64,000 nucleotides of DNA. Source: an uncultured Poribacteria bacterium (GTDB taxonomy: Bacteria; Poribacteria; WGA-4E; PCPOR2b). Shown here piece by piece: positions 1-64,000 of the stretch. Below the pieces are notes generated by a model. It searched no databases and was not told where the DNA came from. It saw only the letters and a program-made list of their open reading frames with translations. The stretch lies in NCBI GenBank assembly GCA_958296125.1, contig OY282444.1, forward strand, positions 124,001 to 188,000, written 5' to 3'. The translations under genes were made by a program, and so were the position numbers. The stretch's first letter is position 1. Each line of letters opens with the position of its first letter.

Positions 1-2826
1 GAAAGCGGTGAATACATGATATTTCCAACGCGGCAGCCTTGAAGGCAAATCTGGCTCCAATACCGTTCCGCCCACGACAAACTCAGGAATGCCATCCCCG
101 GTGAGGTCGCCTGCCGCAAGCTGATGGGCATCCTTGATATCAAGTTTCATGCGCCATGTTTCAACTAGCAGATTGTCTCCAACGGATTCGTAGATGAAGA
201 GTTCGCCCTCACTGTCTCCCACCATTAACTCCGGGCTCCCATTTCCATCGAAATCGCCGATTGCGAATTGTTCTCCGAAAACGTTGGAGCCTTCCGTCTC
301 ATTCTTGATGACGAGCACCTCCTCATAGCTATCGTTCCCGCGGTTTTCAAAAATACGGATATTGTCGTTAAAATTGTCTGCCCCGACAATCTCTTTTCGG
401 CCGTCGTTGTCCAGATCCACAATCTGCCCTGATGAGAGAAAAGGCGTTTCCCAAATAACCTTTCCCGGATAGCCGTTTTGCGTCATACTTTCGACAAGGA
501 AGACCCGTTCTCTCGTGCCGGACAGAATCTCCAACAATCCATCACCGTCAGTATCGTCAACCGCCAACGGCTTAGAGTCAATAGTCCCAGTATGTTGAAG
601 CTGATAAATACCAGCCGCACTCCGTTCATGGACTTCGATTCCTGAAATAGAGTCGCCGGTGATCGGAAGTCCGACAATTTCGAGACGACTGTTCCGGTTG
701 AAATCTGCAGCGACGCTGCCCAAGTGCATGGGAGGGAGTGTGGTCAAGGTCTCAACAAATCCGTTTGGTGAGATAGATTCGCTGATAACCTCCGCACGAT
801 AGAATTTTCCACCATTGTCGTCGACTGTTTCCAATCCTACATCGTTACGAGAGGTGACGAATAAATCGTAACTCCCTGTATTAAGCGAGAGTGAAAAGAA
901 ATGTTCCCGGCTCGCGGAGTTTTCCTTAATTGGTGTGAACGGGGCAAGGGCTTCACGGGCCCGTTGACTCAATGTGTTGATTGTGAAATCATCCGTTGAC
1001 CAAGAGACGACGGTGGCAAAGTTGCCCTTTGTAATCTGATTGTGCACCTTGACATTTCGCACTTGAGGCGGCGTTCTGTCCACGGAGACGACCACTTCAT
1101 CACGCAAAACTTTTCCCTCTACGCTACTGACTTCGAGGCGAACGGTGTAAATGCCTTCTGCTACAACAGACGTTTCCCAAACGATTAGGGTTTCATTTGC
1201 CTTCTGTTGCCGAGAGGGCGCATTGATAGGTTGAAACGCTGTTGGGACTGCCGACTGCCCATAAAGTAACTGCCATGTGTCAAATTTAAATCCGCCAGCG
1301 GTGCCAACAATCTCGATCTGGTTTGAGCCGCCACTGTGAGTTTCTGGTGAAAGAATGTGTGCTTGTAAGGAACCGCTTGCCATCAAAGCTCGTGCTGCGT
1401 TCAGATTTCCTGCACCGACAAGTTCCGGGCTTTCCGTAATTGGGTCGGCGGTCGAGAGCAAAATCTGCCGGACCTCCTCATGCCTCAGGCTTGGACGCTT
1501 CGACATAATCAGAGCGGCAACTCCAGATACATGCGCCGTTGCCATTGATGTGCCAGAGAGGGGACGGTAGCGGTTATTGATATGTGTACTTAAAATGACA
1601 TTGCCCGGTGCACCGATGTCAATAGATGCGCCAAAGTTGGATTGATAAAACTTCTGCTTGTGTTGCTCGGTTGCAGCAACAGAGATGACCTTGCGATAAC
1701 CAGCGGGGAAAATGGACTCACCTTCCGACTCATTTCCTGATGCGGCGACCATCAGGACACCCCTCGCGTAGGCGTAATCCACAGCATCCCGAAGCACAAA
1801 GGAACGCCCGCGCCCGCCCCAACTCATGTTGATAACCCGTGCCCCGTTGTCCACGGCATAGACGATTGCGGCTGCCGAACGGTTGTCCCGTATTCCCGCG
1901 ACACCAGCACCTCGGATCGGCATCAATGTACAATTCCACGCGATACCAGCAATCCCCACATCGTTATCTACTGTCGCTCCCACTATTCCAGCGACATGGG
2001 TCCCGTGGCCCGATTCGTCAATTGGATCATTGTCGCCAGTCTGAGACGCTTCGTTTCCATCGCTATTTGATAGCTCCGAAAAATCCCAACCGTGCACATC
2101 GTCAATGTACCCATTATTGTCGTCGTCAACGCCATTGTCGGGGATTTCGCCAACGTTGACCCAGGTTTGTGAGGCAAGATCTTCGTGGGTATAATCGAAG
2201 CCTGTGTCCACAACTGCGATTATGACCTCCGGATCGCCCTTCTCAATTGCCCACGCCCCCGGCATATCGATTAGCGATAGACTCCACTGTTCCTCATAGC
2301 GTGGATCGTTAGGGATAATTTCGGAAGCCTGTGTTTGGCGAATGTAATTGAATTCGACTGCCTCAATCAACGGGTGTGCAGCGTAGTCCGCTTTGAGGGT
2401 GTGTAGCTCCGTGGGGATCTGAAAGCGCAGCAGATAGATGCGCTCAAGGTTTGGGTTGGATTCCGAGTGAGCGATGTGCGGAAAGAGACGGTAGACTGAC
2501 CGAGCCCCCATCTGATTGTGGAGTTTTTGTAACGGTGCTTCAGCATGAAGGCGTTCCAATTCAGCTTGCGCTTTGGGTGTCACGCGAATCAGAAGCTCCC
2601 CGGGCGTGAATTCCGAACTGTCGGAGATTGGGAGGGAAAACGCGTTCCGTGCGCCGATAGCTGGTGACTGGGAAAGGATTAATGATGTCAGTAGTAGGGT
2701 AAGGATTAACACTGGAGGTAGCGAGAAATTATTTAGATCTATTTGGTTTGAGTAACCATTGATCAGGATTATTTTCCATCGTGACAAGCTTGCCGATGCC
2801 GTTGTTGTATAGTTGGAAAAGTTCAC
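1..2826 (-). CDS. Secreted S8 (subtilisin-like) serine protease with C-terminal VCBS/FG-GAP repeats, partial at left edge
   Basis: Reading leftward the frame stays open to base 1, so the C-terminus is missing (about 942 codons seen). A hydrophobic stretch near residues 38-50 followed by a small-residue site looks like a signal or anchor. The subtilisin triad is clear: Asp in VVDTGFDYTHEDL (~residue 207), His in SGHGTHVAGIVGA (~277) and Ser in SGTSMATAHVSGVAAL (~425), with the oxyanion Asn in ASGNESEG. An inhibitor-like propeptide region lies before the Asp. Below base ~760 the protein becomes repeats with calcium-type loops (DTDGDGLLEI, DLDNDGRKEI, DFDGNGSPEL, DLTGDGIPEF), typical of FG-GAP/VCBS beta-propeller blades. 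Probable role is an exported protease or adhesin. The chosen GTG at 2826 has AGGAGG six bases upstream, but that stretch also lies inside a decayed gene, so TTG at 2787 is an alternative. Confidence 0.88.
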   Translation of the reverse strand, partial: MNFSNYTTTASASLSRWKIILINGYSNQIDLNNFSLPPVLILTLLLTSLILSQSPAIGARNAFSLPISDSSEFTPGELLIRVTPKAQAELERLHAEAPLQKLHNQMGARSVYRLFPHIAHSESNPNLERIYLLRFQIPTELHTLKADYAAHPLIEAVEFNYIRQTQASEIIPNDPRYEEQWSLSLIDMPGAWAIEKGDPEVIIAVVDTGFDYTHEDLASQTWVNVGEIPDNGVDDDNNGYIDDVHGWDFSELSNSDGNEASQTGDNDPIDESGHGTHVAGIVGATVDNDVGIAGIAWNCTLMPIRGAGVAGIRDNRSAAAIVYAVDNGARVINMSWGGRGRSFVLRDAVDYAYARGVLMVAASGNESEGESIFPAGYRKVISVAATEQHKQKFYQSNFGASIDIGAPGNVILSTHINNRYRPLSGTSMATAHVSGVAALIMSKRPSLRHEEVRQILLSTADPITESPELVGAGNLNAARALMASGSLQAHILSPETHSGGSNQIEIVGTAGGFKFDTWQLLYGQSAVPTAFQPINAPSRQQKANETLIVWETSVVAEGIYTVRLEVSSVEGKVLRDEVVVSVDRTPPQVRNVKVHNQITKGNFATVVSWSTDDFTINTLSQRAREALAPFTPIKENSASREHFFSLSLNTGSYDLFVTSRNDVGLETVDDNGGKFYRAEVISESISPNGFVETLTTLPPMHLGSVAADFNRNSRLEIVGLPITGDSISGIEVHERSAAGIYQLQHTGTIDSKPLAVDDTDGDGLLEILSGTRERVFLVESMTQNGYPGKVIWETPFLSSGQIVDLDNDGRKEIVGADNFNDNIRIFENRGNDSYEEVLVIKNETEGSNVFGEQFAIGDFDGNGSPELMVGDSEGELFIYESVGDNLLVETWRMKLDIKDAHQLAAGDLTGDGIPEFVVGGTVLEPDLPSRLPRWKYHVFTAF

Positions 2827-58368: not shown

Positions 58369-59553
58369 ATGACAACGAAATCCAAATCTACCGGATGGTC
58401 AACCAAAGCCATCCATGCCGGCGAAGAATCCCTTCCCAAAACAGGGCCCCTCATTCCGCCCATCTACCAGAACAGCACCTTTCAGTTTGAGACAGCGGAG
58501 GAGTGCGTCACTGCGTTCACGGACGAAGATTCGGGCTATGTCTATACACGGTGGGGCAATCCGACACAATCTGTGCTCGAAAACAAGATTGCTGTGCTAG
58601 AATGCGGTGAAGCGGCACTCGCAACAGCGTCAGGAATGGCAGCCGTGAGCACGGCGTTGCTGACGCTGTTGGCTCACGGAGATCATGTCGTGGCGATGGA
58701 TTCTCTCTATTCTGGCTCATACAATATCCTGAACGAAGATTTCCGTCGCATGGGTGTTGAGACCACATTTGTGGATGCAACCGATGTCGGCGCAGTCGAG
58801 CGGGCGATCCAACCGAACACGAAAACCATCTATCTTGAGAGCCCTGTCAATCCAACACTGAAACTGGTTGACATCGCTGCTTGTGCGGAAATTGCAAGCG
58901 CGCACGAGGTCATATCAATTTTCGATAACACCTTCGCCACGCCGTGTGGACAGCAGCCAATCTCCCTCGGTATTGATGTCGTCGTCCACAGTATGACCAA
59001 GTATCTCAGCGGAAATGGTGCCGTGGTGGCCGGTGTGATCGTTGGATCAAAAGAGTTTATTGATTGCGCGAAGAAAAGCGCGTTACGCCACTTTGGAGGC
59101 GTAATCAGTCCGTTCAACGCTTGGCTGACGTTGCACGGGGTTGCTACGTTGCCGCTACGTTTCGAGCGTCACTGTGCCAACGCCCGCGCGCTTGCAGAAT
59201 TTCTGGAAAATCATTCGGCGATCTCGAAGGTCCATTACCCCGGTCTGCCAAGCCACCCCCAACATGCGCTTGCCAAACGGCAGATGAACGACTTCAGCGG
59301 GATGATCTCTTTTGAACTCAAAAGCGGTGTAGCGGCGGGAGAGACACTGGTGAATCGGGTTGAACTCTGTGCGCTCGCAGTCAGCTTGGGTGACGTAAGG
59401 ACCCTAATCTGTCACCCCGCTTCGACGACGCACTCGCAGGTTTCGCCTGACGCTCGGAGACATGCCGGGATCACCGATGGTTTGGTCAGGGTTTCCGTTG
59501 GTTTAGAGGAAGTGGAAGATATTATCGCAGATCTGGATCAGGCGTTAGCGTAA
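58369..59553 (+). CDS. Cys/Met metabolism PLP enzyme (cystathionine gamma-synthase/lyase or methionine gamma-lyase)
   Basis: The 394-residue fold-type I enzyme begins near GWSTKAIHAGEES and PPIYQNSTFQF, the standard opening of the trans-sulfuration family. YTRWGNPTQSVLENKIAVLE binds PLP phosphate with Tyr and Arg, ATASGMAAVSTALLTLL follows, ESPVNPTLKLVD, DNTFATP holds the PLP Asp, and Lys211 in VHSMTKYLSGNGAVVAG is the Schiff base. C-terminal HPASTTHSQVSPDARRHAGI is typical. The reaction (gamma-synthase, gamma-lyase or O-acetylhomoserine sulfhydrylase) cannot be told apart here. It converges with the rhodanese gene; both handle reduced sulfur. Confidence 0.9.
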   Translation: MTTKSKSTGWSTKAIHAGEESLPKTGPLIPPIYQNSTFQFETAEECVTAFTDEDSGYVYTRWGNPTQSVLENKIAVLECGEAALATASGMAAVSTALLTLLAHGDHVVAMDSLYSGSYNILNEDFRRMGVETTFVDATDVGAVERAIQPNTKTIYLESPVNPTLKLVDIAACAEIASAHEVISIFDNTFATPCGQQPISLGIDVVVHSMTKYLSGNGAVVAGVIVGSKEFIDCAKKSALRHFGGVISPFNAWLTLHGVATLPLRFERHCANARALAEFLENHSAISKVHYPGLPSHPQHALAKRQMNDFSGMISFELKSGVAAGETLVNRVELCALAVSLGDVRTLICHPASTTHSQVSPDARRHAGITDGLVRVSVGLEEVEDIIADLDQALA

Positions 59554-59579: not shown

Positions 59580-60413
59580 TCACGCGTCTGGTATCTCGAT
59601 CGGCAGATCCAGCCGATCTCCCCACTCTTTCCACGAGCCGATGTAGTTGCTGACTTTCTGGTAGCCCAAAAGCCGCAACGCCAGGTAGCTGTGGGAAGAG
59701 CGGTATCCGCCCTGTCAGTAGGACATGACGCGCTTTTCTGGCGTGATGCCTGCAGATTCATAGAGTGCACGCAGTTCGGCAGCGGGCCTGAACATACCGT
59801 TCTCATCCAGATTGTTAAGCCATTCGATATGAACGGAGCCGGGGATGGCACCACCCCGCGCAGAGCGAGCGACATCTCCGTAATGTTCGGCAGCGGCGCG
59901 CGTGTCGAGGACAGCAAAATCGCCGGCATTAAGTAACCCGTGGATGGTCTCCACATCCATGTGGGCATCCGGTTTTGAGTCGCTTGAGAACGCTGGCACC
60001 TCCTCTGGTGCTACGGCTTCGATGCTCACCTCTCCGCCTGCGGCGGACCAAGCACTGAGTCCGCCATCTAACACCCGAACATCTTCATGTCCTAGATATT
60101 CGCAGAACCAGAATCCGCGTGCTGCCTTAACGCCAGATTCGTTTTCGTACCATACAATTGTCTTGGTCGGGTCAATCCCACGGTCCTTAAAGAGATAAGC
60201 AATCGTCCACATAAACGCGTTGAACGCCTGTTCGCTCGTATCGTTGAGGCTGATTGCGAATAGATCGAGATGGATAGCACCGGGGATATGTCCCTCGACA
60301 TATTCATGCGTCGGTCGGACATCCACAAGGCAGATTGAACCGTCGTCGAGTCTACTCATCAGCTCTTCGGCGGAAATCAGCAACTGTGGATTGGCATAGC
60401 CTTTGTCATTCAT
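59580..60413 (-). CDS. Two-domain rhodanese (thiosulfate/3-mercaptopyruvate sulfurtransferase), probable selenoprotein with UGA at the catalytic cysteine
   Basis: ATG 60413 has GAAGGA seven bases upstream. The N-terminal rhodanese domain ([70 protein letters not shown]) and most of the C-terminal domain ([25 protein letters not shown]) are typical. At 59717-59715 an in-frame UGA stands in [19 protein letters not shown], exactly the active-site loop position of the catalytic Cys (normal form CQGGYRS or CxxGxRA). The frame then runs 44 more codons of standard rhodanese C-terminus ([30 protein letters not shown]) to a UGA at 59580. Read through, it is 277 residues with residue 233 as selenocysteine. 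An imperfect stem-loop can be drawn at 59694-59666, but this is untested. Alternatives: a recent nonsense mutation or sequence error. Confidence 0.75.
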
Positions 60414-60531
60414 TGTGTTTTCCTTCTGTTTTGGGGTTTCACGCACTTCCGAAATAAAGTGTTAGGCTTTTCACAACATGTAACCCGCTGAAGTAAATAG
60501 AAAACCAACTCCCATATAGAGCAACTTCTCT

Positions 60532-61623
60532 TTAGAAAAATATTTGCTTTTGCTTGAGTGCTTGAATTCGTGGTTTGAACACCTTGCAAAAGGTTTCAAG
60601 TTGTTCACAGAGCCACTCGTGCTGTTGGTTCCAATCGTGGCGGGTTTCGGGATCTGTGTCAGGTAGAGTGACCTTTATATTACTTTCCTTATTATTGGGG
60701 TTTTCACTCCATTCTAATTCGGCATCAATGTCTTTTTCAACATCAATTTCTTTTTCAATATCTATCCGGTCTTGCTTTAAGCGGTGGTAGTGAGGTTTTG
60801 CGTCTTTCCCCTTAAATATGAGCTTAACACGGATAAATTTGCCTTTCACGCTGGCGGAAGCATTGAGACCGAAGCCTCCATGGCGAAAAGGAGAAAAGGA
60901 AATCCAATGTCCTGCGTTGGGCTTTACGGGTTTGATTACGCCCTCGCCTTGTTCGAGGCGGGTGCATAGTGCTGTCCAGTATTCGAGATACAATTGCTTT
61001 GTAGAAGTTAAGTGCTTTGTAGGAGTTAAGTCGCTATCTACTGATGGGTCGTGAGGTAATGACTGTGGTTCATTAGACGGACTACTAGGTGGATCTACTA
61101 CCGTTTGTGGCAACTCAATGACCGGCTTCATTGCCTCAGTTGGACTACCAGAACCAAGATTCGGCTTCCATATTCGCAACGCTTGCAACGTATTTTCATG
61201 AGCCAGCTGTTGAGACAACTGAAACTTCATTAACTGACGCTCTGCCAACGGGGCCTGCTTGAAGACCTCGTACATTTCCCACCTATCCCCGTCAGTGGCG
61301 ATCATATAGGGAATGCCATTCTGATTAGCATAGGCGTGAACTTGAGTCGTCTCATTATCTTCTATACTACTTCCCAGTCGTTTCGCTTCAATCACGGCAA
61401 TAGGTTTGCCATTCCACATCAGCACATAATCCGCCCGCTTCTGCTTCACCTTATATTCAAGTTGAACTATATCCGGATCCGATACGTCCCAGCCCAACGC
61501 CTGCAACAATGGATCGATCAGCACTTGTCGAGTACGTGTTTCATTTTCAGATAGATAATCACGATGCCTGCCAATCATCTCCTGCAACTTCTCAATGACC
61601 TGTTGTAAATCATCTAACGCCAT
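60532..61623 (-). CDS. HSDR_N-type nuclease with C-terminal DUF4268 domain
   Basis: The 363-residue protein starts at ATG with AAGGAG six bases upstream. N-terminal part: helical RDYLSENETRTRQVLIDPLL, then a PD-(D/E)xK nuclease core with RADYVLMWNGKPIAVIEAKR (Asp, then E-x-K), as in the N-terminus of type I restriction R subunits and related stand-alone nucleases. After a Pro/Ser/Thr linker (~165-205) a second domain (~208-345, YLEYWTALCTRLEQGEGV, KPHYHRLKQDRIDIEKEI) fits DUF4268. The first 40 residues are nearly identical to those of the paralogue at 62176, after which they diverge. Confidence 0.83.
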   Translation of the reverse strand: MALDDLQQVIEKLQEMIGRHRDYLSENETRTRQVLIDPLLQALGWDVSDPDIVQLEYKVKQKRADYVLMWNGKPIAVIEAKRLGSSIEDNETTQVHAYANQNGIPYMIATDGDRWEMYEVFKQAPLAERQLMKFQLSQQLAHENTLQALRIWKPNLGSGSPTEAMKPVIELPQTVVDPPSSPSNEPQSLPHDPSVDSDLTPTKHLTSTKQLYLEYWTALCTRLEQGEGVIKPVKPNAGHWISFSPFRHGGFGLNASASVKGKFIRVKLIFKGKDAKPHYHRLKQDRIDIEKEIDVEKDIDAELEWSENPNNKESNIKVTLPDTDPETRHDWNQQHEWLCEQLETFCKVFKPRIQALKQKQIFF

Positions 61624-61750: not shown

Positions 61751-61968
61751 AACTTTTAACTGTTTTCTAACTTCGCCCGCAGCTCCGCAACCGTCCCTGT
61801 CCCCTTCGCAGAATTGCAAGCCCCACACAATAGCCACAGGTTTTCAAAGTGATCTGTTCCTCCCTTACTGCGAGGGATTTTGTGATCAATCGTCAAATTC
61901 CGAAACGGGAAGAAAATCCCACAGCCCCCACACAACCCCTCCTGCAATCCAAACAGCGTGTGCTTATG
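61740..61968 (-). repeat. 229-bp duplicated module R2, copy 1 (HNH 3' region)
   Basis: Matches 63398-63626 with few mismatches. Carries the HNH-coding 3' end of the methylase gene and the start of the AlbA_2 gene. Confidence 0.93.
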
Positions 61969-62131
61969 CGTCCGTACCGGCGGCACCGGTGGCTTGGCTG
62001 CCAGTGGGGTCAGCGTAGTCACGGTTGGAATTGAACGACGAATCAAAGTAGATCAGATTAACGATCTTGCTATTTATTCCGTACATAGTGGGCAAGTTAT
62101 CCTCAATGAAGATTTTGTTTTTCCAGTTCAT
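61756..62131 (-). pseudogene. Internally deleted DNA methylase-HNH gene
   Basis: ATG 62131 opens MNWKNKIFIEDNLPTMYGIN and FDSSFNSNRDYADPTGSQATG, the N-terminus of beta-class N4/N6 DNA methylases, where motif IV DPPF/Y reads DSSF. After ~55 codons the frame is lost near 61968, and the C-terminal HNH part resumes in another frame: TLFGLQEGLCGGCGIFFPF, NLTIDHKIPRSKGGTDHFEN, CGACNSAKG. The methylase core between them is deleted. The intact counterpart of the 3' part is at 63414-64000. Confidence 0.8.
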
Positions 62132-62175: not shown

Positions 62176-63159
62176 TTACTCGATTGTTGCCTTACATCCG
62201 AAGCGTGAGGCAACGCTCTCTACCATCCTTTTTATCGCCTTGCTGCTGAAGTAGTTATAAACATAAATATCTGTTCCTCCTATCTTACGAGATATAAGAT
62301 TGTCAGAGACTTTTGAAAAGTAATTGCGCCCATTTTTTCTCAACTTAAAATCTAATAACACCCTTTCAAACTGATCTCTCCGAATTTCTAACAAGATTTC
62401 CAAGCATTTGTCAAGACATGCCATATAGTTCTTGCACTTACGTTTGTAGGTCTTGTGTTTATCGTCTTCCAATATAAGTGTTTTTTCATCTTCTGGCTCT
62501 TCGTCGTCGGTCGACTGTTCGGAGGAATTATCTTGACCAGCAGACGGTTTCGGGGTGCGGGAGGGCTGCGGGTGTTGTTCTTTCATGAACTCGTTGCTCT
62601 GCCTGCTAGGTGCATCTGATGCAGATTTTGGTGGTACGAAGACTGGTTCCGTTGCTTTAGATGGACTACCAGAGGAAAGATTTGGGTTCCACATTGAGAG
62701 AGAAGCCAATGCACAATGATGAGGCTCATCACAAACAATATCAAAACGAACGATTGGCTCAAGTGACTCAAGGCTCGTCGTCAGAGTCCGCTCGTACAAT
62801 AGCCAAGTAACACCATTGGTTAGTACGAAAAACTGTACCCCTGCATAGCGAGCGTAGTTGTCAGTCTGTTCAAGATGCTCCAAATCATCAATTTTCTTGT
62901 CTATATTCTTGGCTTCCACAACGGCAACATTTTTCCCACTGTTCTTTAGGATATAATCCGCAGATTCCCGTTTACTTGTGGCTGGTTGATCTTCCAGCGC
63001 CACAAGATCTGGATTCTCAACATCCCAACCTAACTCTCGCAACAATGGATCGATCAGCACTTGTCGAGTACGTGTTTCATTTTCAGATAGATAATCACGA
63101 TGCCTGCCAATCATCTCCTGCAACTTCTCAATAACCTGTTGTAAATCATCTAACGCCAT
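62176..63159 (-). CDS. HSDR_N-type nuclease with distinct C-terminal domain
   Basis: The 327-residue protein shares its first 40 residues (through VLIDPLL) with the gene at 60532, then differs. Nuclease core: ESADYILKNSGKNVAVVEAKNID (PD-(D/E)xK, Asp and E-x-K), FVLTNGVTWLLYERTL, typical of HSDR_N. An acidic Ser/Pro linker (~180-230) leads to a C-terminal ~100-residue domain (KNYMACLDKCLEILLEIRR, FERVLLDFKL) that is not DUF4268 and that I do not recognise. It ends 44 bases before the deleted methylase gene. Restriction or defence function is inferred from methylase and HNH company. Confidence 0.8.
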   Translation of the reverse strand: MALDDLQQVIEKLQEMIGRHRDYLSENETRTRQVLIDPLLRELGWDVENPDLVALEDQPATSKRESADYILKNSGKNVAVVEAKNIDKKIDDLEHLEQTDNYARYAGVQFFVLTNGVTWLLYERTLTTSLESLEPIVRFDIVCDEPHHCALASLSMWNPNLSSGSPSKATEPVFVPPKSASDAPSRQSNEFMKEQHPQPSRTPKPSAGQDNSSEQSTDDEEPEDEKTLILEDDKHKTYKRKCKNYMACLDKCLEILLEIRRDQFERVLLDFKLRKNGRNYFSKVSDNLISRKIGGTDIYVYNYFSSKAIKRMVESVASRFGCKATIE

Positions 63160-63408: not shown

Positions 63409-63626
63409 AACTTTTAACTGCTTTCTAACTTCGCCCGCAGCTCCGCAACCGTCCCTGTCCCCTTCGCAGAATTGCAAGCCCCACACAATAGCCACAGGTT
63501 TTCAAAGTGATCTGTTCCCCCCTTACTGCGAGGGATTTTGTGATCAATCGTCAAATTCCGAAACGGGAAGAAAATCCCACAGCCCCCACACAACCCCTCC
63601 TGCAATCCAAACAGCGTGTGCTTATG
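63398..63626 (-). repeat. 229-bp duplicated module R2, copy 2
   Basis: See copy 1 at 61740-61968. Confidence 0.93.
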
Positions 63627-64000
63627 AGTTCGAGCGGGCGGTATCTCCCCCATATCCGTCCGTTTTGGGTAGTCGTCGCGGTGGACAATCTCCGGGAATA
63701 AGCCTTGATCCGCTTTGATCCGCTTCACCACCAACTCCGCCGCCTTCGGTGAAATGTCAATCCCTACCCATGACCGCTGTAACCGGTCCGCCGCCACCAA
63801 TGTCGTAGCACACCCACAGAAAGGGTCAAACACGACATCGCCGGGGTTGCTACTCGCTTTGATGATACGTTCCAGAAGCGCGATAGGCTTCTGTGTGGGG
63901 TAGCCGGTGCGTTCCTTAGCATGTGCTCCAAGCTGATTAATGTCAACGATTATATCCTGTAGCAGACGACCCGGGCTGGCAGCCAAATATCGCTTGAGTC
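63414..64000 (-). CDS. DNA methyltransferase fused to C-terminal HNH nuclease, partial at right edge
   Basis: The frame is open to the right edge, so the N-terminus is missing (about 195 codons seen). TGYPTQKPIALLERIIKASSNPGDVVFDPFCGCATTLVAADRLQRSWVGIDISPKA is split over motif regions typical of beta-class N4/N6 DNA methylases (TQKP, then DPFCGCATT as AdoMet motif I, GIDIS). After a short linker an HNH domain follows: CGGCGIFFPFRNLTIDHK, PRSKGGTDHFENLWLLC, GACNSAKG, with two Cys pairs for zinc and the catalytic His in IDHK. One protein could thus both modify and cut DNA, or the HNH may aid target recognition. A decayed copy is at 61756. Confidence 0.85.
   Translation of the reverse strand, partial: LKRYLAASPGRLLQDIIVDINQLGAHAKERTGYPTQKPIALLERIIKASSNPGDVVFDPFCGCATTLVAADRLQRSWVGIDISPKAAELVVKRIKADQGLFPEIVHRDDYPKRTDMGEIPPARTHKHTLFGLQEGLCGGCGIFFPFRNLTIDHKIPRSKGGTDHFENLWLLCGACNSAKGTGTVAELRAKLESS

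Follow-up and report, generated by a model that had tools for sequence, protein, structure and literature searches.

A selenocysteine (Sec)-containing "rhodanese-related sulfurtransferase" of the COG2897 type was predicted by Zhang and colleagues in 2005 from three Sargasso Sea genes (PMC1088965), and the GOS survey of 2008 added eight such genes (cd01449) and one more under COG2897 (PMC2398784). A 2026 review includes a "Rhodanese-like form 4" with the motif UxxG (PMC13188914). Our literature search found neither an experimental test of the UxxG rhodanese nor a paper joining Poribacteria with selenoproteins. SelA and SelB have been reported as commoner in the genomes of sponge symbionts than in those of their relatives (PMC5649159).

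The gene described here lies on the minus strand of the window (the whole stretch of poribacterial DNA that was analysed, 64,000 nucleotides). It encodes a two-domain rhodanese of 277 residues when TGA is translated as U, with 232 codons before the in-frame UGA at position 233 and 44 after it. The features discussed below are as follows (window positions, all on the minus strand).

60421-60427, minus strand: Shine-Dalgarno-like AGAAGGA, 7 nt before the ATG
59580-60413, minus strand: rhodanese (sulfurtransferase) gene, with its final stop UGA at 59582-59580; PF00581 at 131.5 bits, matched by 1e0c over residues 6-274
59715-59717, minus strand: in-frame UGA, predicted Sec codon 233, where the catalytic Cys would stand; opposite the Cys of HCQTHHRS in the 1e0c alignment; TGA in 72/80 relatives, TGC/TGT in 8/80
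59700-59717, minus strand: predicted active-site loop U-Q-G-G-Y-R, codons 233-238; invariant among the relatives as UQGGYR (UGA forms) or CQGGYR (Cys forms)
59583-59714, minus strand: the 44 codons past the UGA, with the signature of purifying selection (mean dN 0.012, dS 0.303, ratio 0.041, 125 pairs)
59697-59713, minus strand: conserved 7-bp hairpin just 3' of the UGA, +5..+11 paired with +15..+21, triloop; top of the unbiased helix scan
59663-59690, minus strand: candidate SECIS hairpin fitting the bacterial SECIS rules; loop GUUGCG at +39..+44, spacing 35 nt, -8.1 kcal/mol

The AGAAGGA at 60427-60421 is a plausible ribosome-binding site for the gene. The read-through protein matches the Pfam Rhodanese family (PF00581) in two stretches, with an E-value of 1.8e-38, and its best match among solved structures, at an E-value of 6.5e-46, is the Azotobacter rhodanese 1e0c. 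In that alignment the UGA takes the place of the Cys in the HCQTHHRS loop, the established catalytic residue of this enzyme. The N-terminal rhodanese domain has no Cys at the equivalent loop, and position 233 is therefore the sole catalytic position. The preliminary description of this DNA, made from its letters, had recognised a two-domain rhodanese frame with a UGA at 59717-59715, exactly where the nucleophilic Cys should be, and both the translation and the two matches agree with it.

The gene resembles the COG2897/cd01449 selenoproteins in its two rhodanese domains, in having Sec as the first residue of UxxG (UQGG in all UGA relatives), in its widespread Cys homologues and in being a prediction from sequence. 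Assigned by domain type (PF00581 and 1e0c) and motif rather than by sequence-to-sequence comparison with the earlier reports (AACY01016424, MCY3690685.1), the window rhodanese appears to be a real member of an already predicted kind of selenoprotein and not a new kind. Unlike the marine reports, it is found in a sponge-associated phylum, in genomes that are complete or nearly so and in which both the Sec machinery and the relatives can be seen. Among characterised enzymes, RhdA of Azotobacter vinelandii (1e0c) and other thiosulfate sulfurtransferases share the full-length two-domain fold, the single active site in the C-terminal domain and a loop of the form C-Q-x-x-x-R; RhdA differs in carrying Cys instead of Sec and CQTHHR instead of UQGGYR, and its identity to the window protein is moderate. 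The 3-mercaptopyruvate sulfurtransferase SseA (NF008557) belongs to the same superfamily and has the same domain plan, but the window protein scores 120 bits against a cut-off of 250 and its loop is not of the CG(S/T)G type, so this assignment was rejected. The form 3 rhodanese-related selenoprotein (NF041203, CxU) and TsoB (NF045694) have a rhodanese domain with Sec in common with it; both were rejected on score (36.3 against a cut-off of 115 bits and 21 against 805 bits, respectively) as well as on size and motif.

Conservation of codon 233 and of the sequence past it

A scan of bacterial genomes with the rhodanese protein returned 110 relatives, of which the nearest 80 (52-94% identical to the window protein) were kept. 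The codon aligned with position 233 is TGA in 72 of them and TGC or TGT in the other 8, Cys being the only residue that replaces UGA in this column. None of the TGA-bearing sequences (73 with that of the window) has a further in-frame stop, and the column holds nothing but UGA or Cys, with no frameshifts or other stops past it in the sister genomes. The UGA forms come from records labelled Poribacteria, Latescibacterota, Gemmatimonadota and Nitrospinota, and the Cys forms from Poribacteria, Acidobacteriota, one deltaproteobacterium and one unplaced bacterium.

Selection on either side of the codon was compared over 125 pairs of UGA sequences of moderate synonymous divergence. The mean dN/dS is 0.075 for the codons before the UGA and 0.041 for those after it, from which we conclude that the latter are translated and subject to strong purifying selection; dS itself is about half as high downstream (0.30) as upstream (0.63). 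The 44 codons had been described as keeping rhodanese sequence up to the UGA at 59580, and a random nonsense mutation had been considered less likely than Sec. Both views hold, and on these comparisons we regard a sequencing error or nonsense mutation at 59717-59715 as excluded.

Selenocysteine machinery and candidate SECIS elements

The window genome, a single contig of 5.16 Mb, contains selB (370 bits in a profile search, cut-off 242), a tRNA-Sec (76.6 bits, cut-off 47) about 110-130 bases from selB, and a SelA-like ORF of 482 residues which lies directly upstream of selB and abuts it. The three are side by side, and the ORF is by inspection SelA. The genome also has selD (370 bits; G000:C1:1302552-1303472, about 1470-2529 of locus L098), with an in-frame UGA of its own in a TCG-U-AAK motif, and one in-frame TGA is found in all 76 of the selD genes over threshold in the phylum. 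A hairpin, CAGUCC-AGUU-GGACUG, stands 17 nt after the UGA of the selD of the window genome.

In the phylum, selB is over the cut-off in 76 of 85 genomes, and in 63 of the 67 that carry the UGA-form rhodanese. Completeness is 73-83% in the four exceptions, of which G032 (73% complete) is the only one to lack selD too; every genome with the UGA form that is at least 84% complete has selB. Among 23 genomes reached via their loci, mostly from other groups (the Latescibacterota genomes were assessed in this way), selB exceeds the cut-off in 21; of the 15 genomes outside this phylum that have the UGA form, it does so in 14. The corresponding count for well-known control genomes is 2 of 14.

Both selD (...FV-TGA) and the methionine-synthase-like gene beside it end normally in TGA, so UGA is not reassigned genome-wide; the preliminary description had argued the same from other genes ending in UGA. 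Given the UGA/Cys column, the selection on the downstream codons and the Sec machinery in the genome, UGA codon 233 is almost certainly read as Sec, as first proposed. Decoding as Sec is the only explanation that covers the conservation, the machinery and the normal TGA stops together.

Several hairpins can be drawn after the UGA (positions counted from its U). The preliminary description had placed a possible SECIS stem at 59694-59666 (+24..+52); the stem is drawable but shows no covariation among the relatives, and it overlaps the region of the rule-fitting hairpin at 59663-59690 and is not independently supported. In a constraint scan using the bacterial SECIS rules of PMC13188914, with a pass threshold of -7.5 kcal/mol, 55% of the UGA relatives pass against 36% of synonymous-codon-shuffled nulls, a weak difference; for selD as a positive control the values are 60% (real) and 45% (null). 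A helix scan unbiased by those rules, again set against synonymous nulls, puts the expected SECIS first for selD (+15..19 with +25..29, five-base loop), and for the rhodanese it ranks the 7-bp hairpin at +5..+21 first. All 37 UGA representatives keep at least 6 of the 7 pairs of this hairpin or of its one-step alternative (+6..+25), against 26% of the synonymous-codon nulls, a comparison whose significance is overstated because such nulls ignore shared ancestry. Codon choice within it is far from that in the rest of the gene, Tyr237 being TAC in 37/37 against 42% elsewhere. The hairpin can also form in 5 of the 8 Cys relatives, and it lies outside the published bacterial SECIS model (window of 16-37 nt), since its loop is only 8-9 nt away from the UGA and lacks an early G. 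Column-pair covariation around the UGA is not above background for any candidate hairpin among the relatives, RNAalifold on the 37 UGA representatives gave no meaningful consensus structure, and an Rfam scan of the gene region returned chance matches only. A hairpin starting 1 nt past the UGA codon is expected to be in the mRNA channel of the ribosome when the UGA is in the A site. The +5..+21 hairpin may therefore be accessory and not the site of SelB, and it is possibly part of a SECIS or an element of the UGA context.

Proposed sulfur transfer and alternative readings

The gene very probably encodes a two-domain rhodanese-type sulfurtransferase in which UGA 233 is decoded as Sec and this residue serves as nucleophile and carrier of sulfane sulfur. 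In the proposed mechanism, SelB and Sec-tRNA would insert Sec at codon 233. Within the C-terminal loop UQGGYR this residue would act as nucleophile; the N-terminal domain has no catalytic Cys. The selenolate would then most likely accept sulfane sulfur from a donor such as thiosulfate or a persulfide, hold it as Enz-Se-S- and pass it to an acceptor thiol or a thioredoxin-like protein. In this scheme the enzyme would most likely follow the ordinary rhodanese cycle, a selenolate standing in for the thiolate. The fold, the loop and the domain plan match those of thiosulfate-type sulfurtransferases. The sequence shows the recoded codon, how it is conserved, translation past it and the Sec machinery; from homology we infer how sulfur is transferred, on which substrate, and whether selenium brings an advantage over sulfur, as well as which hairpin is the SECIS. 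Residue 231 is Cys in most relatives (CYU) but Ser in the genus of the window genome, and some Latescibacterota have Pro there; the enzyme therefore does not depend on a Cys-Sec pair. The window genome has a second rhodanese of the Cys type (loop AYCRIGERSS), with 35% identity to the Sec copy.

A selenoprotein in which Sec serves mainly redox chemistry (reduction of persulfides or peroxides) or the carriage of selenium, for example towards SelD, is a rather improbable alternative, though the most serious one. Most characterised selenoproteins are redox enzymes and rhodanese folds can bind selenium, and the presence of a separate Cys rhodanese of such low identity in the same genome suggests that the Sec copy may be specialised. 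Against this, the catalytic loop and the fold are those of sulfurtransferases, the Cys relatives keep CQGGYR, and a conserved second Cys that could act as resolving residue is missing, as the variation at 231 illustrates.

Readings in which position 233 is not Sec at all are much less probable. If the UGA were a true stop, whether by nonsense mutation or as a regulated truncation, the codons after it would be untranslated and the protein would lose its active-site loop together with its last 44 residues. UGA is an ordinary stop elsewhere in this genome and the SECIS is putative, but such a stop is very hard to reconcile with its recurrence at one codon in 72 deeply diverged relatives, with the low dN/dS downstream and with the loss of the catalytic loop. 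Hardly more credible is read-through of the UGA as Cys, Trp or Gly by a suppressor or a change of code: a sequence formally cannot name the residue at 233, yet the Sec machinery of the genome is complete, Cys is the only alternative in the column and UGA ends selD, and none of the computed results favours this reading.

Read as a Sec rhodanese, the gene extends a rarely seen kind of selenoprotein to most of an uncultivated sponge-associated phylum and to some of its neighbours, and gives one concrete use for the SelA and SelB reported in sponge symbionts (PMC5649159). Gene finders that take UGA as a stop only would cut these rhodanese genes before the active site. The many natural Sec and Cys versions of an enzyme with a single nucleophile make the value of selenium over sulfur in sulfur transfer measurable.

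Distribution, history and genomic surroundings

Of the 85 genomes of the phylum, 70 gave a rhodanese match; 67 of these genes carry one in-frame TGA, and the other 3, all from one family, carry none; the Sec form would thus be the rule and not the exception in the rhodanese of this phylum. Two genomes of the genus of the window genome (G018 and G019) gave no rhodanese match at an E-value of 1e-60, and the lineage may thus be able to do without the gene. On a maximum-likelihood tree of 82 rhodanese proteins, Sec and Cys must have been exchanged three times. The poribacterial Cys proteins L086 and L090 are nested in the poribacterial clade with support of 99/98, which makes a replacement of Sec by Cys the most likely course there. 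The single outgroup joins the tree by a very long branch, so the direction of change is read within Poribacteria rather than for the whole set. The view that a Cys version is the mark of a genome lacking selB was rejected, as most Cys-form genomes also carry selB; the change from Sec to Cys is thus not simply a consequence of losing the machinery. A combined reading in which the SECIS is non-canonical (a conserved hairpin that begins 1 nt past the UGA codon, within the sequence encoding the active site and outside the 16-37 nt window), and in which Sec is ancestral with Cys derived at least within Poribacteria, is speculative and on balance unlikely.

None of the neighbour families that are frequent in the 80 rhodanese loci was found beside the window gene, and no conserved neighbourhood ties it to sulfur or selenium metabolism; the neighbours vary by lineage and give no functional clue. 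In 47 loci of other genera, a MATE-like transporter (by inspection) lies upstream of the rhodanese. In the window, the convergent neighbour at 58369-59553 (plus strand, opposite to the rhodanese) resembles by inspection a PLP enzyme of the cystathionine gamma-synthase / methionine gamma-lyase type, and would be another sulfur amino-acid gene. On the other side, the ORFs at 60532-61623 and 62176-63159 (minus strand) share a near-identical N-terminus, MALDDLQQVIEKLQEMIGRHRDYLSENETRTRQVLIDPLL, followed by different C-termini, and repeated HNH-like ORFs lie near them at 61756-62046 and 63414-63998; this appears to be a local duplication adjoining the rhodanese.

Other selenoproteins in the window genome were sought by family. 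Three long TGA-interrupted frames in the window itself (+14063, +22988 and -44577) were rejected, as they look like adjacent genes ending in TGA. Outside the window, just upstream of selD, the methionine-synthase-like gene (cobalamin-independent; PF01717, PRK06520-like; L098:57-1163, plus strand, equal to G000:C1:1301108-1302214) is interrupted in frame by a TGA at codon 243 (FHL-U-RGNQG), which corresponds to the Cys of HICRGN in 1ypx. By analogy with MetE this position should be a zinc ligand. Exactly one TGA, at the conserved HxC cysteine, is present in 7 of 7 homologues in the phylum, from two genera. Methionine synthase is absent from the text of the 2026 selenoprotein review (PMC13188914), and the gene possibly represents an undescribed selenoprotein family.
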